This document shows positions 26,246-37,367 of a stretch of DNA of 64,000 nt, piece by piece (position 1 is the stretch's first letter; every line of letters begins with the position of its first letter). The notes under the pieces are model-generated. The model was not told the origin of the DNA. It saw only the letters and a list, made by a program, of their open reading frames with translations, and did not search any database. This stretch comes from Desulfovibrio desulfuricans (GTDB lineage: Bacteria > Desulfobacterota > Desulfovibrionia > Desulfovibrionales > Desulfovibrionaceae): positions 1-64,000 of the forward strand of contig NZ_CP036295.1 of the NCBI RefSeq assembly GCF_004801255.1, read 5' to 3'. A program made the position numbers and the translations under genes.

Positions 26246-28567
26246 ATGCTGCGCGAATCATTAAAGAAGTCAAAAAAAATGCCGTGGCTGGCCATTGCGG
26301 CCAGTCTTGCCTGGCTTGTGCTGACCGGGGTGCTGTACAGACAGGCCGTGCAGGTCAATGCCGAACACAGTCTTGAACTTGAGCATACACGACTCTCAAC
26401 GATGGCGCAGCAATTAATGGACGCCAGAAACTGGAATGCCGCACACGGCGGCGTCTATGTGGCGCAAAGCGAGTACGGCCAGCCCAACCCGTGGCTGCCC
26501 GAGTCGGAGCGCACGGTCAAAACCCAGGATGGCCGCAGCCTTGTGCTGGTCAACCCCGCCTATATGAGCCGCCAGCTGGCGGAACGCAGCTCGCGCGAAG
26601 GCGTGAGCATCAGCATCATCAGCAACGCCCCGCTGCGGCCCGAAAATATGGCCGATGTCTGGGAGCGCTCAGCATTGGCCCGTTGCGCCGACGAAACACC
26701 CGAAGTCTTTACGCCGCCCCGGCAGGGCGACGGGCAAAGCCTGCGGCTCTTGAGCGTGCTCATGGCCCAGCAAAGCTGCCTGCGCTGCCATGCTGGCAGA
26801 AAGGTGGGGGATGTGCTGGGCGCCATCAGCGTGAGCCAGGACGCGACCCAGTTTCAGAAAAGCCTGGAAAAACAGCGTCACAACATGCGCCTGTTGTACG
26901 GGTTGCTTGCCGTTACTGGCGTCCTCGCCATTGGCGGCATCACCCTCAACCTCACGCGCAGGCGCTGGCTGGCCGAAGAAGCCAGCCGCATGAAGAGCGC
27001 ATTTATGGGGCACCTGAGCCACGACATGCGTACGCCCCTCACGGCCATAGTGGGCATGAGCGAGCTGGCCCAAAAAAAGAATCTGCCCGAGCAGGAGCGC
27101 AACCGCGCCCTCAATTATCTGGTACAGGCTGCTGAGGCCCTGCACGAAATGGTAGGCGACATCATGGACCACGCTGCGCTTGAGCAGGGCGCGCCGTCCC
27201 TGCAGGCGGCTCCGTTCAACCTGCGTCAGTGCCTGGCCGACTGCGTGGAGCTCTACCGGCCCATCTCGGAAAACAAATCAATAACTCTTACGCTGGGGCT
27301 GGACAAAAACCTGCCCACCTGCGCCGTGGGCGACAGTTTTCGCCTGCGACAGGCGCTCGGCAATATCATCAGCAATGCGGTGAAATTTACGCAGACAGGC
27401 TCTGTACGGGTGTTTGCGACAGGCATTGAAAATACCCCCGCGCAGCTGCGGCTGGCCATAGCAGTGACGGATACCGGCCCTGGCCTCGCACAGGAGGATC
27501 AGGCCCGCGTGTTCGAGAGCTTTCAGCGGGGGCGCGACAGCGCCCACACGCCAGGCACAGGCCTGGGCCTGAACATCGCGCGTACGCTGGCAAGGCTCAT
27601 GGGCGGGGATGTGCATCTGGTCTCACGCCCCGGGCAGGGAGCCTGTTTTACGCTGGAGGTTCTGCTGCAGCAGTGCACCCAAAGTCAGAACAGCGAGGCG
27701 GACAGGCAGGAAGACGCCGCAGGGCAGAATCAACGCGCGCCCCTGCAGGGCAAAAAAGTGCTGGTGGCCGAGGACACCACGTCCATTGCCTACGCCCTCA
27801 GGCAGATGCTGCTGGGCATGGGGGCCGAACCGCTGGCCGTCGCAAGCGGTGAAAGCGCGCTGCAAACACTTGCCGATCCAAGGCAGGGGCCGTGGGATAT
27901 GGTCATCCTCGACAGCCGGTTGCCCGGCTTGAGCGGCCTGGAAGTACTGAGCGCCATTCGCCAGGGCGAAACCCTGGCCCAACGTCAAATGCTTGCCGTC
28001 ATCTATACTGCTACCAGCAGCAGCGAATTTGTGCAGACCTGCAGAAAGCTGGGGGCGGATGGCGTATTTTTGAAGCCACTGAGTTTTGAGCAATTGCGCA
28101 GCCAGCTGGAAAGAATTGTCGCAGAAAGGGATTATGCCCGGCACGGGCCTGCCTCGCAGCCTGCGGACGACAAAAACGCAATAAACAATGGCGCTGTGAA
28201 TAGTTCTGCATTGCAGCGAGATGAAGCCATTCAAAGTGGTAACGTGGTATGGAACCGCAACGCGGCGCTTGCAGACCTCGACAATGACGAGGCTGTACTG
28301 CAAAACCTTGTGGATGTGCTGGCGCACGAGCTGACAGAGCGGCTCGCCGCACTGGACGCGGCCCTTGCCGACGGTAATGCCGAGCAGGTGCGCCGCACGG
28401 CGCATGCCTGTAAAAATTCGGCGGGCATCATGCGGCTTGATCAGCTGCGAGCGGCAGCCAGCGCGGCTGAGAGCGCGTCAGGCGACAGCATTGCGCCAGC
28501 CGCGCAAACGCTCAGGCAGGCCATACTTGAGGCCAGGCAGGCGCTCGCCGCCGACGCGGCGAAATAA
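26246..28567 (+). CDS. nrfS: Hybrid sensor histidine kinase with heme c sensor domain (NrfS-like)
   Basis: This 773-residue membrane kinase has an exported sensor domain between membrane helices at about 13-31 and 216-236. The sensor carries one c-type heme motif, CLRCH, at 178-182, in a Tll0287/DUF3365-like setting. The phospho-histidine is His259 (HLSHDMRTPL). An ATPase domain with DTGPGLA and GTGLGLNIA, a receiver with Asp556 (VILDSRLPG), and a C-terminal HPt domain with His720 (TAHACKNSAG) follow. It is thus a complete phosphorelay in one chain. It is divergent from nrfHA and upstream of the sigma-54 regulator, as in the Desulfovibrio NrfS/NrfR system. Heme attachment implies direct nitrite, NO or redox sensing, which is inference. 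Confidence 0.88.
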   Translation: MLRESLKKSKKMPWLAIAASLAWLVLTGVLYRQAVQVNAEHSLELEHTRLSTMAQQLMDARNWNAAHGGVYVAQSEYGQPNPWLPESERTVKTQDGRSLVLVNPAYMSRQLAERSSREGVSISIISNAPLRPENMADVWERSALARCADETPEVFTPPRQGDGQSLRLLSVLMAQQSCLRCHAGRKVGDVLGAISVSQDATQFQKSLEKQRHNMRLLYGLLAVTGVLAIGGITLNLTRRRWLAEEASRMKSAFMGHLSHDMRTPLTAIVGMSELAQKKNLPEQERNRALNYLVQAAEALHEMVGDIMDHAALEQGAPSLQAAPFNLRQCLADCVELYRPISENKSITLTLGLDKNLPTCAVGDSFRLRQALGNIISNAVKFTQTGSVRVFATGIENTPAQLRLAIAVTDTGPGLAQEDQARVFESFQRGRDSAHTPGTGLGLNIARTLARLMGGDVHLVSRPGQGACFTLEVLLQQCTQSQNSEADRQEDAAGQNQRAPLQGKKVLVAEDTTSIAYALRQMLLGMGAEPLAVASGESALQTLADPRQGPWDMVILDSRLPGLSGLEVLSAIRQGETLAQRQMLAVIYTATSSSEFVQTCRKLGADGVFLKPLSFEQLRSQLERIVAERDYARHGPASQPADDKNAINNGAVNSSALQRDEAIQSGNVVWNRNAALADLDNDEAVLQNLVDVLAHELTERLAALDAALADGNAEQVRRTAHACKNSAGIMRLDQLRAAASAAESASGDSIAPAAQTLRQAILEARQALAADAAK

Positions 28568-28692
28568 CAGGGCCACGCCCTGCGGCCGGTCGCGGTGTGC
28601 AAACAGCGCCCCGCGGCGCTGCAGGCGACAACAGAACAACTTGCGGCGGTAAACCCCGCGCAGCGCCTGCGCGGATATGGGGAGGGGAGCAG

Positions 28693-30132
28693 ATGGCCAG
28701 AGTCCTCGTGGTGGATGACGAAGGTCTCATGCGCACCATGGTGCAGGTGGTTTGCAACCGTATGGGGCACGAGACGCTGCTGGCAGGCTGCATTCAGGAC
28801 GCCCTGCGCATGGCGGTGGAGCCAGTGGACGTGGTGCTGCTTGACGTCTGGCTTCCTGACGGCAATGGTCTGGAATATCAGGCAGATTTTGCGCATCTGC
28901 CCGGCGGCCCCGATGTGGTGGTCATTACGGGCAACGGCGACGGCGACAATGCCGAGGCCGCGCTGCGCTCTGGCGCGTGGGAGTTTTTGACCAAACCCCT
29001 GCAGATGCGCGACATCGAGCAGTGTCTGCGGCAGGTGCTGCAGTTCAGGCAAAACCGCTCTCCAGCGGCGGAATCGCTGGTGGTGGACAGCGGCCATGTT
29101 CTGGGGGCCGGGCCTGGCATGAGCCGCGCGCTCAAGTTGCTGGCGCAGGCGGCAAAAAGCGAAGTAAACGTACTTTTGCTGGGTGAAACAGGCGTAGGCA
29201 AGGAGTTGTTTGCGCGGGCGCTGTTTCGCAACAGCGGGCGTGCCGCCAAGCCCTTTATAACGGTAGACTGCGCCTCGCTGCCCGAAACCTTGGTGGAGAG
29301 CCATTTGTTTGGCCACAGCCGGGGGGCCTTTACTGGCGCCGACAGGGCGCGGGACGGCTTGCTGCTGGCTGCCGACAAGGGCACGCTGTTTCTTGACGAG
29401 GTGGGCGACTTGCCGCAGCCCATGCAGGGGGTGTTTTTGCGTGCGCTGGAGCAGCGCCGCTTTCGGCCTGTGGGCGAGGTGCGCGAGGTGAGCAGCGACT
29501 TCAGGCTGGTGGCGGCCACCAATAAAAACCTGGAGCAAATGGCCAGGGAAAACAACTTTCGGGCAGACCTGCTGTACCGGTTGCAGGGCATAACCATTGT
29601 CATCCCTCCTCTGCGTGAAAGGCTGGACGAAATACCGGCTCTCGCCCGGCAGGGCATAGCCCGTTTTTGTCTTGCCAGCGACCAGCCTGAAAAAAGTCTC
29701 TCCAACGAAGCCCTGAATATGCTGCTGGAATACGCCTGGCCCGGCAATGTGCGCGAGCTGAACCACTGCCTTGAGCGCGCCTGTCTGGCGGCGGGCAAAA
29801 GTGATCTGCTGCTGCCCGCGCATCTGCCCACCCGCATGAGGGTCGCCAGCGTGCGTCGTCGTCTGCGGCAGGGGCTCGCTGAACCAGAGCGGGCAAACGA
29901 AATGCTGCTGGCTACGGATGCCACGCCCGTCGCAAACGGGGCCGCAGGGCATACGCTGTCAGCTGGGGCCGACAATACGCAGCCCAGCCTGCGAGAATGG
30001 AAATCGCAAGCGGAAAAAGCCTACGTGCGGCAGGTGTGGGATATGAGCGGCGAGGACGTGCGCAAGGCTGCGGAAGTTGCAGGTATTTCACGCGGACACT
30101 GGTATGAACTGATGAAAAAAATTGGGTTGTAG
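28693..30132 (+). CDS. nrfR: Sigma-54-dependent response regulator (NrfR-like)
   Basis: This is a 479-residue NtrC-type activator. The receiver has Asp8-Asp9 and phospho-acceptor Asp51 (VVLLDVWLPDG). The central AAA+ domain has Walker A GETGVGKE (about 163), the sigma-54-contacting GAFTGA loop (about 212) and Walker B TLFLDEVGD. A Fis-type helix-turn-helix (VRKAAEVAGISRGHWYELM) ends the chain. The start was moved 32 codons in, where GGAGGGGAGC precedes the ATG. It follows the heme-bearing kinase by 125 bases. By analogy with D. vulgaris NrfR it should activate nrfHA through the sigma-54-like promoter upstream of nrfH. Confidence 0.9.
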   Translation: MARVLVVDDEGLMRTMVQVVCNRMGHETLLAGCIQDALRMAVEPVDVVLLDVWLPDGNGLEYQADFAHLPGGPDVVVITGNGDGDNAEAALRSGAWEFLTKPLQMRDIEQCLRQVLQFRQNRSPAAESLVVDSGHVLGAGPGMSRALKLLAQAAKSEVNVLLLGETGVGKELFARALFRNSGRAAKPFITVDCASLPETLVESHLFGHSRGAFTGADRARDGLLLAADKGTLFLDEVGDLPQPMQGVFLRALEQRRFRPVGEVREVSSDFRLVAATNKNLEQMARENNFRADLLYRLQGITIVIPPLRERLDEIPALARQGIARFCLASDQPEKSLSNEALNMLLEYAWPGNVRELNHCLERACLAAGKSDLLLPAHLPTRMRVASVRRRLRQGLAEPERANEMLLATDATPVANGAAGHTLSAGADNTQPSLREWKSQAEKAYVRQVWDMSGEDVRKAAEVAGISRGHWYELMKKIGL

Positions 30133-30818: not shown

Positions 30819-33800
30819 CTAAAAAAGGCTGATCTGCTTTTGCGCCTTGCGGGTGTGCTCGGCAAGGGCGCTGTGTCGGCAAAATTCGCGTATCTGGCCT
30901 ATAAAGGGCGAAGGCTGCAGCTGCAGCGTGCGGCCATAAAGGCTGCGCTGGGCGCAGTGGCTGAGAAACAGCGCACGGGCGGCACGCGTCAGGCCCACAT
31001 AGAGCAGCCGACGCTCCTCAGCTTCGTTTTGTTGGCTTTCCCCGCAGGATGTCCCCTCTGTGGGGAAGAGCCGCTCGCGCCGCAACGGTAGCAGGCCGTC
31101 TTCCAGCCCAGGAATAAATACCGCCTGAAATTCAAGCCCCTTGGAGGCGTGCAAGGTCAAAATTTGCACGTGCTCGGCTTTTCCGCGCACAAGTTCGGCC
31201 TCGCGTAGCCAGGCCAGCTGCTCAAAGAATGCAGGCCAGCTGCCGCTCTGCTTCCATACCCGGCACAATTGCCGCCAGCTGTGCCCGCTGGTAAAGAGTT
31301 CCCCCGCCCAGGGCTGGCTTGCAAGCCATGCAACCATACCCTCGGGCGCAGGCATGGTCTGGGCTGCCCAGTGTTCTGGCAGGCGGTAGGTCTGATCCTG
31401 CGATTCGGCAAAAAATTGCGCAAAACCGCAAGCTACCGCCAGCATGTCCAGCAGGCGGGCGCAAGCGGGATCCTGCCAAAAAGCATCCTGCGATGGCGCT
31501 GCGCATGGGATGCCCGCCTGTTCAAGGGCAGCGCGCAAGGGGGCGATCTGCGCCTTGAGGCGCACCAGAACCGCAACATCGCCGGGTGCAAGGGTTCCGG
31601 CCAGGCCGTGCAGGTCGTCCGGGTCTTGCCTGTCCATGAGCGTGTGGGCGGTGGCACCAAGCAGACGCCGCACGCGCTCGGCAACCCAGCGGGCTTCGGC
31701 ATGCTCGTCAGGGGCGGAAAAAAGCCTCAGGTCGGCCGTGAGCTGCTGCGCAGCCTGCAACGGGCCGCACTGCCCCTTTTGGAGCAAAAGGCTGCGGGCC
31801 ATGTCCAGCACGCTCTGGCTGGAGCGAAAGCTCTGCCCGAGCCTGTGCACGTCGAGGCCCGGCCAACAGGCGCGCAGACTGGCTTCGCTTTGCCCCGTAA
31901 CGCCGCGAAAGCCGTAAATTGCCTGATCAGGGTCGCCGATGCCAAAAAAACCCGTGCCGTCCGCGGGCAGCAGGGCGCGTACAATGGCGAGCTGCACAGC
32001 GGAGAGATCCTGCACCTCGTCCACAAGCACATGCAGGGGGCGGGCGTTTGCGTCCAGAGGGTTTGCGGCCTGAGCGCGGGCGTGCGCAAGCCACCAGTCC
32101 AGCAGGTCGGCATAGTCCACATAGCGTTGGCCAGCGTTTTTGCGGGCCGCATAGTTGGTTGCGGCACGGGCCAGCGGGCTGTTGGTCTGTGCGTCGGCAA
32201 GGCTTGCCCGCTCGCGGGCCAAGGCCAGTTGATCCCACAGGTCGCGGGCCTCGCGGGCTTCCAGCGCGGGGTTTGCCAGCCGAAACAGGTTGAGCGCGGC
32301 ATCCTCGCCCAGCAGCAGCGGGGGGATGCCTTCGCAGGTCTCGCGCATGGCGGCCCAGGCCATGCCGTGCAGGGTGTCGCACTGCGGCAGGGTGCTTTGA
32401 TCCGCTGCCCAAAAAGCTCCGCTCAATCTCTCGCGCAGCTCGTCAGCGGCACGCCGGGTAAAGGTGACGGCCAGCACCCTGCGCATGTCCACGCCTTGCC
32501 CGGCCAGCCACTGCAGGCGTCCCACCAGTACGCGGGTTTTGCCCGCGCCGGGGCCAGCCAGCACAAGCACTGGCGCGGGGCCGCTGGTAAGGGCCGCCTG
32601 CTGCTCGGCGGAATAGGCAAACACCCGCGCCGGGCAGTCCGGTTTGGCGGCGGCCCGCACAGCCAATAAATTGGCGGCATCCACCGTTCCGTCCGCAAGG
32701 GGCAGAGACGCGCGGCGTACCCGTACCGAACCTTGAGCGGATGCGTCGTCCGCTGCTGCACCGGCCTTTTTGCGTCCACGCCTGGCCGGAGCTTTTACAC
32801 CCGGCAGTGCTCCGCGCGCGTCTGCCAGCTCCTCTGGGGCAAAAACCCGCACAATGCCGTACTCGCCGTCATAGCCGCCCTGACGGTAGACCTGCCCGCG
32901 CCGCATGCGGGCCACGGCCTCGCCCAGCGGTTCCCAGTGGGCGCGGATGTCGGCCTCCGGCAGACGGCAGAGAATATCCAGCTCCGGCCCAAGCTCACGC
33001 AAAAGACGGCTGTAGCGTTCCTGCACCCGGCGCGAGGAGGGGCCGACACCCAGAATTTCGCCCACCACCTCGGCCAGCGGTATCAGCGGGCGCACCTCGG
33101 GCTCGTGCAGGAGCTGCGCCGGGGTGTCGCGGTCGGCCAGCTCAAGCACGCGGTGCAGCACGCCCACGGTCAGCGGTTTGCCGCAGACGGGGCAGATATT
33201 GCCAAGGGCCAGCGAATCTTTGGGTTCCAGCACCACGTTGCAGGCGCGGTGTCCATCGAGGTGGTACTTGCCTTCGTCGGGGTAGAATTCCATTGTGCCC
33301 AAAAAACGGCAGTCGAGGCCGCTCTGGTCCTCTCGCCGGGCAGAAGCGCGCAAGGCCGCAAACACGCCCGCATAGCTCGGCTGACCCGCAAAAAGATTGG
33401 CCTCGCGCCCCAGGTTGGGCCCGGAATGCGCGTCCGAGTTGGATACGAGGGCGTACCCGTCAAGCCTGCTGATAAGGCGGTTCATGGCCGGGTCGGACGA
33501 CAGGCCGGTCTCAAGAGCAAAGATGTGCTCCGAAAGGTCGCCGTAGCAGTCCTCCAGCCTGTCAAAGCCGGATTTGGAACCAAAAAGCGCAAACCAGGGC
33601 GTCCACACATGGGCAGGAATCATCACCGAACCGGGCGCGCATTCCAGCATGATTTCAAGCAGATCGCGAGAGTCCAGCCCCAGAATGGGCCGTCCGTCGG
33701 CGTTGAGGTTGCCTATCTGGGCCAGGCGCAGCGAAAGCCGCTCCGCATCCTCAAGCGTGGGAACAAACACGAGGTTGTGGACCTTGCGCACCTGACCGCC

Positions 33801-34115
33801 GCGCTTGTAGATGGAGCTGATCTCGGTCTGCAGCATGAACAGCGGAGCTTCGGACGCACGCAAGCCGGGGCTTGCCGTCGGGTCCATGAAGTCCAGCGTT
33901 TCCGGCTCCACCGCCAGACGGTAGAGGCCGGAATTCTCGTCGAGCACGAGCTGTTCCGCCAGTTCCGCCCGCCACTGGGGGTGGGTAAAGTCGCCCGTGC
34001 CCAGTACGTTGATGCCCTTGCAACGCGCCCAGGCGGCCAGATGACGGGGATTGAGCGCCTTGCTTGTGGCGCGCGAAAACCGGGAATGGATGTGCAGATC
34101 AGCTATAAAATTCAT
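30819..34115 (-). CDS. Endonuclease Q-like PHP/zinc module fused to UvrD-type helicase
   Basis: This 1098-residue protein has two parts. Residues 1-420 form a PHP domain with likely metal ligands His8, His10, Asp42, Glu98, His113, His169, Glu202, Asp228 and His230. A zinc element follows, with Cys292 and C308-PV-C311 in CPVCGKPLTVGVLHRV. This arrangement matches the TIGR00375/endonuclease Q family, which nicks DNA 5' of deaminated bases. Residues 495-1098 are a full SF1 helicase: GPGAGKT (521-527), VDEVQD (698-703), GDPDQAIYGFRG (727-738), LGQSFRSS (759-766), then TLHASKGLEFQAV and YVGLTRAAR. A basic linker (RRGRKK) joins them. It is the last gene of a leftward run. A role in repair of deaminated DNA is inference. 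Confidence 0.85.
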   Translation of the reverse strand: MNFIADLHIHSRFSRATSKALNPRHLAAWARCKGINVLGTGDFTHPQWRAELAEQLVLDENSGLYRLAVEPETLDFMDPTASPGLRASEAPLFMLQTEISSIYKRGGQVRKVHNLVFVPTLEDAERLSLRLAQIGNLNADGRPILGLDSRDLLEIMLECAPGSVMIPAHVWTPWFALFGSKSGFDRLEDCYGDLSEHIFALETGLSSDPAMNRLISRLDGYALVSNSDAHSGPNLGREANLFAGQPSYAGVFAALRASARREDQSGLDCRFLGTMEFYPDEGKYHLDGHRACNVVLEPKDSLALGNICPVCGKPLTVGVLHRVLELADRDTPAQLLHEPEVRPLIPLAEVVGEILGVGPSSRRVQERYSRLLRELGPELDILCRLPEADIRAHWEPLGEAVARMRRGQVYRQGGYDGEYGIVRVFAPEELADARGALPGVKAPARRGRKKAGAAADDASAQGSVRVRRASLPLADGTVDAANLLAVRAAAKPDCPARVFAYSAEQQAALTSGPAPVLVLAGPGAGKTRVLVGRLQWLAGQGVDMRRVLAVTFTRRAADELRERLSGAFWAADQSTLPQCDTLHGMAWAAMRETCEGIPPLLLGEDAALNLFRLANPALEAREARDLWDQLALARERASLADAQTNSPLARAATNYAARKNAGQRYVDYADLLDWWLAHARAQAANPLDANARPLHVLVDEVQDLSAVQLAIVRALLPADGTGFFGIGDPDQAIYGFRGVTGQSEASLRACWPGLDVHRLGQSFRSSQSVLDMARSLLLQKGQCGPLQAAQQLTADLRLFSAPDEHAEARWVAERVRRLLGATAHTLMDRQDPDDLHGLAGTLAPGDVAVLVRLKAQIAPLRAALEQAGIPCAAPSQDAFWQDPACARLLDMLAVACGFAQFFAESQDQTYRLPEHWAAQTMPAPEGMVAWLASQPWAGELFTSGHSWRQLCRVWKQSGSWPAFFEQLAWLREAELVRGKAEHVQILTLHASKGLEFQAVFIPGLEDGLLPLRRERLFPTEGTSCGESQQNEAEERRLLYVGLTRAARALFLSHCAQRSLYGRTLQLQPSPFIGQIREFCRHSALAEHTRKAQKQISLF

Positions 34116-34170: not shown

Positions 34171-35007
34171 TTAAGCCAGCCAGGGGCAAAATCGCAGCGC
34201 CCGCGCGGACCAGTGGGCACCGTCGGTTGCGGTCTGCGCGCTGTGCAGCGTCAGGGGCGCTTCAAGCACGCACTGGTGCGCCGCATTTTTGCGGGCCAGC
34301 GCAAGAACGCGCATGGCGGGCCTTGAGGCGTAGGCCCGCACGGGCACAATGCCGCGCAGGCCAAGCCCCGCGTCATCCAGGGCGGCGCACAGCCGGGGCA
34401 GTGCTGCAGCGTCGTAAATACAGCAAAAATATCCCAGATGCCGCAGCAGGTTTGCGGCGGCGCGGCAAAACACCGTCAGCGAGACCTCAGGCGCATCAGC
34501 CCCAGTGTTCTTGCGCGCACTCTCTCCCTGCGCTGCGCGCAGGGCCCGCTCGCGCATCCGGCTAGGCGAGGGACGGCCCGCCACGTCATAGGGCGGGTTT
34601 GCCAGTACCAGGTCAAAGCTGGCGGGCTTGCCGCCGGCGGGCTCGGGCAGCCGCCCAAGCTGGCGCAGGTCAGCCAGGTCGGCCTGGGCAAAGTGCAGCC
34701 TGTCCGCAAGGCCAAGAAGCTGCGCATTGGCAGTAGCGGCCTGCACAAGGGGCGCTTCCCTGTCCAGCCCAAGGCCTTTGAGCGTGTCGCAACGCAGGGC
34801 CAGCCCCAGCAGGGCCGCCCCGCAGCCGCAGCCAAGCTCCGCAGCGGCAAGGGCGTTGCGCCGGGCCGGGCTTAGGCCTTCCACCTGCCGTGCGGCAAAA
34901 GCCGCCAGCAGCAGAGCGTCCGCGCCAAAGCGCAAGCTGCCTTGCGGCTGCTGAAGCCCGCGCGGGAAAAGCGCACGGGCTTTGTGGATGGTGGCTTGGG
35001 TGTCCAT
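34171..35007 (-). CDS. TrmN6-like N6-adenine methyltransferase
   Basis: This 278-residue SAM-dependent methyltransferase has motif I AELGCGCG at 56-62 and the catalytic NPPY at 137-140, the signature of amino-group methylation. It opens with the FPRGLQQPQGSLRFGADALLLAAF block seen in YfiC/TrmN6, which modifies A37 of tRNA1-Val. The long open frame extends over 200 codons upstream, but that part overlaps the U32 gene. The ATG at 35007 has AGGAAA before it. It lies between the U32 gene and the helicase fusion on the same strand. The tRNA target is inferred from the family. Confidence 0.82.
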   Translation of the reverse strand: MDTQATIHKARALFPRGLQQPQGSLRFGADALLLAAFAARQVEGLSPARRNALAAAELGCGCGAALLGLALRCDTLKGLGLDREAPLVQAATANAQLLGLADRLHFAQADLADLRQLGRLPEPAGGKPASFDLVLANPPYDVAGRPSPSRMRERALRAAQGESARKNTGADAPEVSLTVFCRAAANLLRHLGYFCCIYDAAALPRLCAALDDAGLGLRGIVPVRAYASRPAMRVLALARKNAAHQCVLEAPLTLHSAQTATDGAHWSARALRFCPWLA

Positions 35008-35111
35008 GGCGTTTCCTGCGCAGGAGAAAGGGCCGCCGACAGAAATGGTATCCCTGCTGGCGGCCCGTGATATGTCGTGCTGTGCATGCCGCCGGGCGGC
35101 CTGCATGGGGG

Positions 35112-37367
35112 CTACAGCAGCGCCCCCTCCCAGTTGAACAGGCTTTTGCGCCGCATGTCGGGCACAGAGGCGGGCGGGTTTTCCTGCATATGCGCAAAAA
35201 AGCCGTATCCAGCCGCCGAGAGCTCCTGCCGTTTGCTGGTGATGTCCAGCGGCCAGCCAGGATAAATCCAGATATTGCCGCCGTACTGCCGCGCCCAGAA
35301 GGGTTCGCCCATGGGGCTGAGGAAGGGCTCGTTGGGCTTGACGCCCAGCAGGCCAAAACGGCTGATGCCCACGGGCCAGTAGCCGGAAAGCACCGCGCCC
35401 AGCGGCAGGGGGCTTTGCGCGGGCAGGGCGAGCATGTCTTCCTGCGCCAGCTCGGGGCTCACAAATGCACCTGCAAAGCCCATTTGCGCCAGCACGCCAA
35501 GGGCTGAGGCATTGGCCGCATTGCAGAACGGCCCTGCCAGCAGGTCGGCGTTTTCGTCCAGCTGCTCGGGGAAAAGGCCTCGCTGCCACGGCGCGTTGCA
35601 GACAAAATGCCGTGCGCCGTCGCGCCACAGCCTGCCTATGGAACGGCGCAGGGTTTCCTCTTCATCCGGCCAGATAACAGGCGGTAGCCACCAGCACATG
35701 CGCGGGGCCACCGTGCGCGAGAGCTCCGCGCTGCGCGCCGATAGCCAGAGGCCCTGCAACTGGCTGCGGCTTGTGCGGGTCTCCTTGCCGTGGGGCACGC
35801 TTGAGCGCACGTACACGTCTGGCCGGGGCTTGGCCTTGATGGGCTTGGGCAGACGCGGGTCGGTTTCTACCGGTTTGCTGGGGCGCGAGGGCATGGCCTC
35901 AAGGCGTGCCTGCCAGCTCTTGATGATGCGCATAAGCTCCGGTTCACGCCGGTCAATAAGAAAAACCGGCGTGCCTGCCTTGGGCGTCTTGTGCTTGGGC
36001 AGGCGCAGGGCAAGGCTGCCGCCCTTGGGGATGCGCCGGGTTACGGGCAGGGTGGCGTGCCAGCGCTCGTCCTCCACGCCCACGCGCAGGTAGTCCTGCG
36101 GCAACAGCTCAAAAAAGGGCTTGAGCGTCACGCCGCCTTCGGGCTCGATGCGTATCTTGCCCGCCAGCAGGCCGGAGCTGGTCTGGCCGTCCGGCGCGAT
36201 GGGGATGGTGTGATCCTTTTGCGGCAAAAAGCGCGCGCGGGTCACGGGCCGCCCCAGAGCCATCTGCAGTATTTCTTCCGCAGTCTTGCGGGCCTGGGCG
36301 TCGCCGGGGTTGTCGCGCAGCATGCGGTAGGCTGTCACCACATGGTACACGTAGTGCGGGCCTTTTTTGCGGCCTTCGATCTTCCACGACACCAGATGCG
36401 GGATGTTCATCAGGGTTTTGGCCAGCACATCCAGCGAAAGGTCAAGGCAGGAGAACCAGCGCCCGTTGTGCTCCTTGCCGCGCACCTGTCCGCGCGTGGT
36501 CTGGCGTCGGGGCGCGTCAAACGATTCGTTTCTGCGGTCGTCGGATTTGTCCCGGTCGTCGGGCCTGCCGCGTCCATCGCGTCCGTCGCGCCCGGTACGG
36601 TTTTTGCGGGCAATGTCCATGCGCGACTGTTCGCTGCGCAGGCGGTCCTGCTCCTCGCGTTCCGCATTGCGGATCAGGGCAATGGCCGCAGGGCCGCCCT
36701 GACGGTACACGCGGCGGCAGGGCTGCACGCAACGCCCGCGCAGACCGCTTTTGCCGCCCATGTAGCTCGACCAGTAGCAGCGGCCGGAAACGCAGTAGCA
36801 CAACGCGCCGTGCACAAAGCACTCGAGGTCAAGGCCTTCGGGGCAGGCCTCGCCCATGGTGCGTATCTCGTCAATGGAAAGCTCGCGCGGCAGGATAACG
36901 CGGTTTGCGCCAAGTTTTTTGGCCTGCAACAGGCTTTCGGGGTGGGTGAGGTTGGCCAGGGTCGAAAGAAAAAGGCCGCCCTCAAAACCTGCCTGACGGG
37001 CAAGATCAAGCATGGCCAGATCCTGCACGATAAGCCCGTCGGGGCGTACCTGACGGGCAAGGCGGGCCGCCAGCCGGTATGACTGCGAGGTCTCGCCCGG
37101 CTTTATGAGGGTATTCATGGCCACATAGACGCGAGCGTTTTCGGCATGGGCCAGATCGGTAAGGCGCGAAAGCTCGGTTAGGCCAAAATTTTCTGCCTGC
37201 ATGCGGGCCGAAAAATGCTTGAGGCCCAGATAGATGGCATCGGCCCCGGCGGCAAGCGCAGCCAGAAATGAAGGCGCGTCGCCCGCCGGAGCCAGAATTT
37301 CGGGCCGGGCGGGCGTGGGTGCGGTCAGGGTTGCGTTGTCCGCAGAGGGGGAAAATGTGTCGTTCAT
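35112..37367 (-). CDS. U32-family Fe-S protein (RlhA/TrhP-type)
   Basis: U32 proteins, once called collagenases, mostly act in tRNA or rRNA hydroxylation and use an Fe-S cluster. The 751 residues begin with a TIM-barrel-like region (RPEILAPAGDAPSFLAALAAGADAIYLG). The cysteine signature follows with C190, C192, C197, C213 and C217 (VSGRCYWSSYMGGKSGLRGR, then QPCRR). A highly charged Arg/Asp-rich insert of about 65 residues (233-297) interrupts the usual barrel and is low in complexity. It overlaps the epimerase stop by four bases (ATGA). The exact RNA substrate is unknown. Confidence 0.82.
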   Translation of the reverse strand: MNDTFSPSADNATLTAPTPARPEILAPAGDAPSFLAALAAGADAIYLGLKHFSARMQAENFGLTELSRLTDLAHAENARVYVAMNTLIKPGETSQSYRLAARLARQVRPDGLIVQDLAMLDLARQAGFEGGLFLSTLANLTHPESLLQAKKLGANRVILPRELSIDEIRTMGEACPEGLDLECFVHGALCYCVSGRCYWSSYMGGKSGLRGRCVQPCRRVYRQGGPAAIALIRNAEREEQDRLRSEQSRMDIARKNRTGRDGRDGRGRPDDRDKSDDRRNESFDAPRRQTTRGQVRGKEHNGRWFSCLDLSLDVLAKTLMNIPHLVSWKIEGRKKGPHYVYHVVTAYRMLRDNPGDAQARKTAEEILQMALGRPVTRARFLPQKDHTIPIAPDGQTSSGLLAGKIRIEPEGGVTLKPFFELLPQDYLRVGVEDERWHATLPVTRRIPKGGSLALRLPKHKTPKAGTPVFLIDRREPELMRIIKSWQARLEAMPSRPSKPVETDPRLPKPIKAKPRPDVYVRSSVPHGKETRTSRSQLQGLWLSARSAELSRTVAPRMCWWLPPVIWPDEEETLRRSIGRLWRDGARHFVCNAPWQRGLFPEQLDENADLLAGPFCNAANASALGVLAQMGFAGAFVSPELAQEDMLALPAQSPLPLGAVLSGYWPVGISRFGLLGVKPNEPFLSPMGEPFWARQYGGNIWIYPGWPLDITSKRQELSAAGYGFFAHMQENPPASVPDMRRKSLFNWEGALL

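Follow-up and report, generated by a model that had tools for sequence, protein, structure and literature searches.

An EndoQ-like nuclease joined to a UvrD-type helicase in Desulfovibrio desulfuricans, a candidate single-chain enzyme for deaminated DNA

Endonuclease Q (EndoQ) cuts DNA on the 5' side of deoxyuridine (dU), deoxyinosine (dI), deoxyxanthosine (dX) and apurinic/apyrimidinic (AP) sites, leaving a 3'-OH (PMC4357722). Most archaeal EndoQs carry a C-terminal sliding-clamp motif (PMC4858679), through which the enzyme is stimulated by PCNA (PMC4858679; Pab0431, PMC3820547). An EndoQ homologue in Desulfovibrio appeared in print in 2015 (PMC4357722), and a beta-clamp motif at the C-terminus of bacterial EndoQ homologues, those of Desulfovibrio included, was stated in 2016 (PMC4858679). 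Here we describe a gene of Desulfovibrio desulfuricans, located in the first 64,000 nucleotides of contig NZ_CP036295.1 (the stretch analysed, hereafter the window), that encodes an EndoQ-like nuclease and a UvrD-type helicase in one chain of 1098 residues (Table 1). No description of the UvrD fusion, of its spread or of its His-Cys-Cys-Cys (HCCC) zinc signature was found in the papers searched, although Figure 9A of PMC4357722, in which archaeal and bacterial EndoQs are drawn with their lengths, may already include the longer chain.

The gene is a single intact open reading frame (ORF) running on the minus strand from an ATG at 34115 to its end at 30819, and the plus-strand reading of the same interval from its first base is interrupted by stops. 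A preliminary description made from the letters of the window had located this gene and regarded it as a natural nuclease-helicase fusion, which our results bear out, although it gave no strand and missed the motif at the C-terminus. The solved structures closest by sequence were PfuEndoQ (phmmer, E=1.5e-47) and then UvrD (E=2.4e-40). When the whole-chain AlphaFold2 (AF2) model, built from 42 window and locus fusions, was compared with solved structures by VIA-align, PfuEndoQ came first (Z 44.0, 2.3 A over 385 residues, model residues 1-433); in Foldseek, EndoQ reached only rank 24 by E-value, UvrD chains matching the other half ranking above it. The linker between the two modules is disordered in the model, and the corresponding stretch (residues 423-502 of the window protein) measures 36-106 residues across 68 fusions, a set without L021, L078 and L097, whose tails were truncated or out of frame, and in which identical sequences were counted once.

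The spread of the fusion was followed in the genome of D. desulfuricans and its relatives, 61 genomes (G000-G060) that were taken as its own order (Desulfovibrionales, an order name that we infer). All 61 genomes matched, and 59 of them carried both parts in one frame of at least 989 amino acids, G004, which was matched only up to residue 890, being counted among these; the other two (G011 and G023) are drafts with the nuclease and helicase parts on different contigs. An assembly or frameshift artefact is ruled out by these 59 single frames. Over the phylum, 103 of the 148 genomes sampled had a match to the NCBIfam model TIGR00375, 41 of them in frames of at least 875 amino acids and most others in frames of about 400-500, and every one of the 20 long frames examined (L083-L102) carried the helicase in the same frame. 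Likewise, the best 80 of at least 591 stretches, in at least 590 relatives, from a scan of species genomes were all single-frame fusions, with titles from Thermodesulfobacteriota, Actinomycetota, Bacillota, Gemmatimonadota, Planctomycetota, Chloroflexota, Bacteroidota, Myxococcota and others, the titles of metagenome-assembled genomes being possibly mis-binned; isolates among the matches listed include Geobacter argillaceus, Actinopolyspora mortivallis, Micromonospora, Frankia, Eisenbergiella porci and Desulfonema magnum. In Bacillota, 75 of 149 genomes matched, both as solo EndoQs of about 400 amino acids and as frames of 982-1362, and 18 of the 20 regions taken for longer or odd frames held the fusion. 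The EndoQ-UvrD pairing is old and kept. One Bacillota locus (L263, G247:C112) holds a 1210-residue fusion and a 420-residue fusion-type solo EndoQ about 7 kb apart on opposite strands.

The EndoQ character of the N-terminal half is best seen in its fold. Modelled alone from 35 sequences (predicted local distance difference test, pLDDT, 90.9; predicted template modelling score, pTM, 0.91), the module aligned to PfuEndoQ (5zb8_B) in VIA-align with Z 45.6 and a root-mean-square deviation of 2.2 over 386 of 398 residues (model 1-433), and to the dU complex of PfuEndoQ with Z 44.8, thus reproducing the EndoQ fold of about 400 residues with its PHP domain and zinc module; template modelling scores by target in Foldseek were 0.89-0.90 to EndoQ. 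The next-best PHP proteins were PsfC (Z 16.9) and a phosphoesterase (Z 15.2), followed by PolC/Pol III (Z about 10) and histidinol phosphatases (Z 7.6 and lower), which rules out a PHP phosphatase or a polymerase PHP as the nearest fold and upholds the EndoQ type proposed earlier as far as structure is concerned. The nine PHP and zinc-module residues singled out in the preliminary description (H8, H10, D42, E98, H113, H169, E202, D228 and H230) are all present and invariant in the 68 fusions and in 29 solo homologues. Alignment places Pfu H84, H139, E167, G169, S171, D193 and H195 at H113, H169, E202, G204, S206, D228 and H230, so that the PHP metal ligands of EndoQ are found, Pfu E76 being matched to E98 by position only. 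The pocket residues H169, G204 and S206 are invariant in the same 68 fusions and 29 solos, and their Pfu counterparts H139, G169 and S171 have been credited with excluding T and A in a review of EndoQ-DNA structures (PMC8307549). Judged from these residues, the active site of the EndoQ-like module is intact, and the module probably cuts DNA beside deaminated bases.

The zinc module departs from the described pattern at one position. The cysteines C249, C252, C268 and C271 of PfuEndoQ correspond to H289, C292, C308 and C311, the last two lying in residues 308-323 (CPVCGKPLTVGVLHRV), and the four-cysteine module reported for EndoQ (PMC4357722) therefore has His289 as its first member, a plausible zinc ligand. 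Histidine occupies this position in 160 of 166 fusions, in all 29 phylum solos and in both Bacillota solos that group with the fusions (see below), compared with cysteine in 29 of 33 Bacillota solos; for archaea the signature was compared with Pfu only. In addition, the module scores 149.4 bits on TIGR00375, under the cut-off of 326.6 that none of the 148 genomes over the phylum reached, and it shares 66 of 189 aligned residues with Pfu. The earlier assignment to a TIGR00375/EndoQ type is thus sustained by fold, ligands and pocket, but not by the family score or by the first zinc cysteine.

The C-terminal half is a complete superfamily 1 (SF1) helicase, as the preliminary description had it. 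The Pfam domains UvrD-helicase (PF00580) and UvrD_C (PF13361) scored 119.6 and 102.6 bits against gathering cut-offs of 23 and 25.6, respectively, and all of motifs I to VI are present, which places it in the UvrD/Rep superfamily 1A (SF1A). Seventeen of the 22 helicase motif positions, the catalytic ones included, are invariant in all 68 fusions (among them K526, T527, D699, E700, Q731, R764, H989, K992 and R1044), and those that vary are R554, T987, R1035, R1036 and Y1039. In VIA-align the helicase half matched Deinococcus radiodurans UvrD with Z 39.0 over 506 residues (model about 498-1085), followed by Rep (Z 38.4), PcrA (Z 37.3) and Escherichia coli UvrD entries (Z 29.4-37.1). The scores on the UvrD/PcrA/Rep equivalog models of NCBIfam stayed under their cut-offs (187.1 against 965, 185.5 against 911.2, 179.5 against 1144.45 and 178.7 against 951.45 bits). 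Moreover, the stretch holding subdomain 2B (G868 to H989) has 122 residues, compared with 164-169 in the 20 canonical UvrDs taken from the own order; its median length in the fusions is 111 (range 24-177), measured to residue 983 where the canonical comparison runs to 989. A canonical UvrD is also encoded in the genome of D. desulfuricans (G000:C1:171681-172712). The fusion appears made to function as EndoQ and UvrD combined, but it lacks the four cysteines of a strict EndoQ and stays below the TIGR00375 cut-off.

The window protein terminates in QISLF, which corresponds to the C-terminal sliding-clamp motif of EndoQ and is probably a replication-clamp tag. The tails counted come from related, non-independent sequences. 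Of the 65 fusions from outside the own order, 57 had a strict clamp pattern, Q[LMIV]x[LM][FLI], within their 20 C-terminal residues, compared with a mean of 0.36 and a maximum of 3 in shuffled tails; this set (L135 and L138-L202 minus L140) was sorted by title and identity, its usual tail is QLxLF, and column counts around the motif are conditioned on motif presence. The strict pattern also occurred in 16 of 19 fusions from the remainder of the phylum sample and in 19 of 29 phylum solos, compared with none of 33 Bacillota solos, and it was found in none of the 20 canonical UvrDs of the own order. Bacillota fusions matched it in six of 18 cases and a looser pattern in 14 of 18, sequences cut by contig ends (L266 and L267 here, L137 in the set L123-L202) having been left in the tail counts. 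Of 166 fusions, 47 have a second motif, QxxLF or QxxMF, where nuclease and helicase join, compared with a mean of 1.5 and a maximum of 8 in shuffles; it lies in residues 411-445, about where the phylum solo EndoQs end. In a few fusions with longer linkers the second clamp-like motif lies further on; taken together, such motifs fall at residues of about 410-490 (L095, L151, L265, L268 and L270 are examples).

Phylogenetic analysis of 110 EndoQ modules placed 14 of 16 Bacillota solos, which score high on TIGR00375, in a distinct clade (100), a long branch away from the fusion clade, and 18 own-phylum solos and 2 other Bacillota solos were nested in the fusion-type clade. By their sequences, the fusion-type EndoQs are a clade of their own with the HCCC zinc set, and the nested solos look like later fissions because of their position inside it, the root of the tree not being inferred. 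In the helicase tree the fused group was weakly supported (68), the canonical type being represented only by helicases of solo-EndoQ genomes, without the 20 own-order canonical UvrDs; both trees are quick searches without bootstrap, with Pfu and B. pumilus EndoQ not included. A split version occurs in L113 (6000-8970), where the helicase ATG stands directly behind the EndoQ stop and the helicase ends in NQMELFS. Standalone fusion-type helicases were identified in five of 20 solo-EndoQ genomes (G184, G122, G114, G187 and G088); they have 503-567 residues, score higher on the fused profile than on the canonical one by 185-246 bits, and four of the five are not beside EndoQ. Their tails (NQMELFS, KMRLFNI, QKGLFD, QIDLF and QSSLFSL) contain QxxLF in four cases and KMRLF in the fifth. 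Two of these genes, at 1063-2574 of L303 and 1127-2635 of L304, encode proteins of 504 and 503 residues with the tails QIDLF and QSSLFSL, the solo EndoQ lying elsewhere.

The genomic background of the fusion was examined in terms of other initiators of repair. In the genome of D. desulfuricans (one contig, 3.25 Mb, 100% complete), the uracil-DNA glycosylase (UDG) superfamily (PF03167), EndoV and Nfo were not found. The UDG superfamily was not found in 47 of the 61 own-order genomes either, and it was present in seven of 37 genomes of the own family and in 11 of 49 good assemblies, compared with 130 of 148 genomes over the phylum. EndoV was found in none of the 61 own-order genomes (controls were positive in 6 of 14), and Nfo was found in 15 of the 61 and in none of the 37 of the own family. 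With UDG scarce, EndoV absent from all 61 genomes and Nfo from the 37 of the own family, the deamination branch of repair is therefore thinned out in this order; the survey proposed earlier, of whether such genomes lack EndoV, Ung or Nfo, thus comes out largely in favour for these relatives. Among the UDG superfamily, EndoV and EndoQ, the fusion is the only dedicated initiator for uracil and hypoxanthine found in the own genome, AlkA and AAG not having been searched apart, and the protein may repair deamination damage in D. desulfuricans. The question of how cytosine deamination is dealt with in the absence of UDG has been raised for UDG-lacking archaea (PMC6202378), and nothing was found in the papers searched on missing UDG in Desulfovibrio.

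On balance we consider it somewhat probable that the fusion repairs deaminated bases (dU, dI) and abasic sites by nicking and peeling, with both acts in a single chain tethered to the clamp. Judging by the motif, the C-terminal QISLF would keep the enzyme bound to the beta clamp where DNA is being replicated or has just been replicated. As suggested by the fold, the ligands, the pocket residues and the characterised relatives, the EndoQ-like module would then flip the lesion into the PHP/zinc pocket and nick immediately 5' of it, leaving a 3'-OH at which the clamp could sit. UvrD-type SF1A motors move 3'-5'. Brought to the nick by the flexible linker, the motor would run 3'-5' along the intact strand, since movement along the nicked strand would take away the wrong side, and would displace the strand that has the lesion at its 5' end, as SF1A polarity implies. 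A polymerase could subsequently extend the 3'-OH, the 5' flap would be trimmed and a ligase would seal the strand, so that a 5' nick, which leaves the lesion at a 5' end, combined with a 3'-5' motor that displaces that strand would amount to nicking, peeling and refilling. The nuclease and motor activities as such are supported by homology; which lesions would be cut, how nicking would be coupled to unwinding and in which order the steps would follow is what we infer. The legend of Figure 10 of PMC4357722 proposes that, once EndoQ and EndoV have cut, the lesion is removed 'by helicase activity', and the fusion would supply in one chain this step, which is drawn there as a separate hypothetical act.

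Several observations weigh against this nick-and-peel scheme or limit its reach. The clamp motif is degraded within the own order, where only 10 of 49 tails match the strict pattern and 22 of 49 the loose one. The UDG superfamily remains in 14 of the 61 own-order genomes, Xth is present in 54 and HhH-GPD glycosylases in all 61, the own genome having both. An archaeal Xth nicks at dU (PMC4357722), and according to PMC6202378 archaea and higher eukaryotes were the only groups in which Xth had been observed to recognise uracil. Outside the own order, UDG was kept in 40 of 41 fusion genomes, which were drawn from the 80 scan loci and include two of the own phylum (L159 and L192); the only one without UDG holds L198, and the completeness of these 41 genomes is not given. 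With UDG also in 130 of the 148 phylum genomes, a general replacement of UDG by the fusion is ruled out, and the 'alternative to base-excision repair' that the preliminary description had offered is too wide a formulation; nor is the loss of UDG general among carriers of the fusion. Additionally, the loci examined in the other 15 of the 20 solo-EndoQ genomes showed no fusion-type helicase, lower-scoring matches being excluded, so EndoQ can do without the helicase there. We offer only tentatively, and with some doubt, the broader view that deamination repair started by glycosylases or EndoV has largely been abandoned by Desulfovibrio-like bacteria, that most of them depend on the clamp-bound EndoQ-UvrD as the main or only initiator for uracil and hypoxanthine, and that glycosylase-free incise-and-peel repair would be the default in most of the order and would stand beside UDG in many other phyla.

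Four other explanations were weighed. Subdomain 2B restrains Rep-like helicases, and its shortening here, together with a long disordered linker that permits independent action, would suit an enzyme whose UvrD motor scans or opens the DNA first, for instance at stalled forks or transcription bubbles, and then passes lesions in single-stranded or melted DNA to the EndoQ module, so that the nick comes last. Uracil and hypoxanthine in single-stranded DNA are indeed cut efficiently by EndoQ (PMC11354406), but a 5' nick is a natural loading site for the motor, solo EndoQs act without a fused motor and the order of the steps is not fixed by the present data, and we judge such a reversed sequence unlikely. 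The two modules could also serve different repair events, uncoupled on any one lesion and sharing no more than a clamp anchor and a fixed stoichiometry, for instance with EndoQ acting on deaminated bases and the helicase on recombination or conflict intermediates. Each part has a complete active site of its own, the second clamp-like motif stands at the junction of 47 of 166 fusions, and the parts are separable, as seen in the split L113 and in the standalone helicases of solo genomes; the pairing has nevertheless been held across many phyla in one domain order, despite a canonical UvrD in the same genome, and an uncoupled role seems to us quite improbable.

The EndoQ-like module might, alternatively, have kept its chemistry and moved to another lesion or structure, such as ribonucleotides, flaps or base damage of another sort. 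Such a drift of the substrate may have occurred, given the long branch that separates the fusion clade from the high-scoring Bacillota solos and the differing first zinc ligand, two points that also count against the nick-and-peel scheme, and the TIGR00375 score is less than half of the cut-off. Yet the pocket residues are invariant, the fold match extends over the full EndoQ length, and an order in which UDG is scarce and EndoV absent is in keeping with a role on deaminated bases, which leaves a moved substrate with a low probability in our judgement. A nuclease-helicase directed against phages or mobile elements, with a logic like that of Gabija or aimed at uracil-containing phage DNA, appears very improbable. 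The best PADLOC matches were GajB UvrD helicases (1.3e-51), and an antiviral role of bacterial EndoQ has been suggested in one review (PMC8307549). However, the GajB matches are confined to the generic UvrD portion, the gene is not patchy, every own-order genome having a match, and no phage-record match to the nuclease module and no plasmid match to the whole protein at E<=1e-60 were obtained, viral contigs not having been scanned and no defence partner sought. With the GajB matches generic and the phage and plasmid searches null, a defence gene has little support.

The features of the fusion gene are collected in Table 1. Upstream of it on the same strand (window 34171-37367, minus), a U32 peptidase-family gene and a PrmC/TrmN-like methyltransferase gene form a pair that ends 55 bases before the ATG of the fusion; the U32 gene is TrhP/UbiU-like and falls below the TrhP/UbiU cut-offs. 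A conserved operon was rejected, the order of neighbours (methyltransferase and U32 before, a small ORF behind) being kept only in L004 and L005 among the loci inspected, a comparison that covered neither L003 and L006-L032, which are near relatives too, nor L053-L082. In the more distant loci inspected, none of the methyltransferase, U32 and small ORF adjoins the fusion. Convergent with the fusion (window 26246-30132, plus) is a gene for a hybrid histidine kinase with a Tll0287-like sensor, HisKA, HATPase, receiver and Hpt domains, which adjoins an NtrC-type sigma-54 response regulator; weak histidine-kinase matches were also present in the distant loci L042, L045, L051, L091 and L093, and a regulator match in L091.

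Table 1. Position of the EndoQ-UvrD fusion gene and of its parts in the window
Feature	Position	Strand	Basis
EndoQ-UvrD fusion gene	30819..34115	-	single ORF, 1098 amino acids + stop; AF2 model pLDDT 85.5, pTM 0.86
EndoQ-like module, residues 1-433 (PHP domain, zinc module, C-terminal helical part)	32817..34115	-	model, VIA-align and phmmer
Zinc-binding set H289, C292, C308, C311 (residues 289-311)	33183..33251	-	alignment to PfuEndoQ
Low-confidence linker, residues 436-498	32622..32810	-	pLDDT <50
UvrD-type SF1A helicase module, residues 498-1085, shortened 2B	30861..32624	-	PF00580/PF13361, fold match
C-terminal QISLF, residues 1094-1098, candidate beta-sliding-clamp motif	30822..30836	-	tail statistics, canonical-UvrD control

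New in the present analysis are the fusion-type EndoQ clade with its HCCC zinc set, the C-terminal beta-clamp motif, and a host genome in which the UDG superfamily, EndoV and Nfo were not found. A complete bacterial genome in which no UDG was found, in an order that carries the fusion, makes the question of how cytosine deamination is dealt with directly testable in a sulfate reducer. Besides, bacterial EndoQ in its fused form is not confined to a few genera but reaches across many phyla.

Compared with the archaeal and Bacillus EndoQs (PfuEndoQ PF1551, TkoEndoQ and the B. pumilus enzyme), the window protein has the whole fold of about 400 residues, the PHP ligands, the pocket glycine and serine, the CPxC zinc module and, as in archaeal EndoQ, a C-terminal motif of the sliding-clamp type, and it differs in being fused to UvrD and in the histidine that replaces the first zinc cysteine. 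From the high-scoring Bacillota solo EndoQs the fusion modules are set apart as a separate clade, in a tree without the Pfu and B. pumilus proteins. With the SF1A helicases UvrD, PcrA and Rep it shares all motifs and a full-length fold match, whereas its helicase stands behind a nuclease, has a shorter 2B, ends in a clamp motif and scores below the equivalog cut-offs. Gabija GajB and similar proteins resemble it in pairing a UvrD-like helicase with a nuclease, but Gabija-type defence is not known to include a PHP/EndoQ nuclease, and the present gene has a match in each of the 61 own-order genomes, with neither a phage nor a plasmid match and with no search made for GajA. In the UvrC/UvrD and MutH-MutL/UvrD systems, a lesion- or strand-directed nick is followed by strand removal by UvrD. 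The proposed action of the fusion follows the same nick-then-UvrD logic; unlike these systems, where nicking is directed by distortion (UvrC) or by methylation (MutH-MutL), the fusion would hold both acts in one chain and would nick in a base-specific manner.

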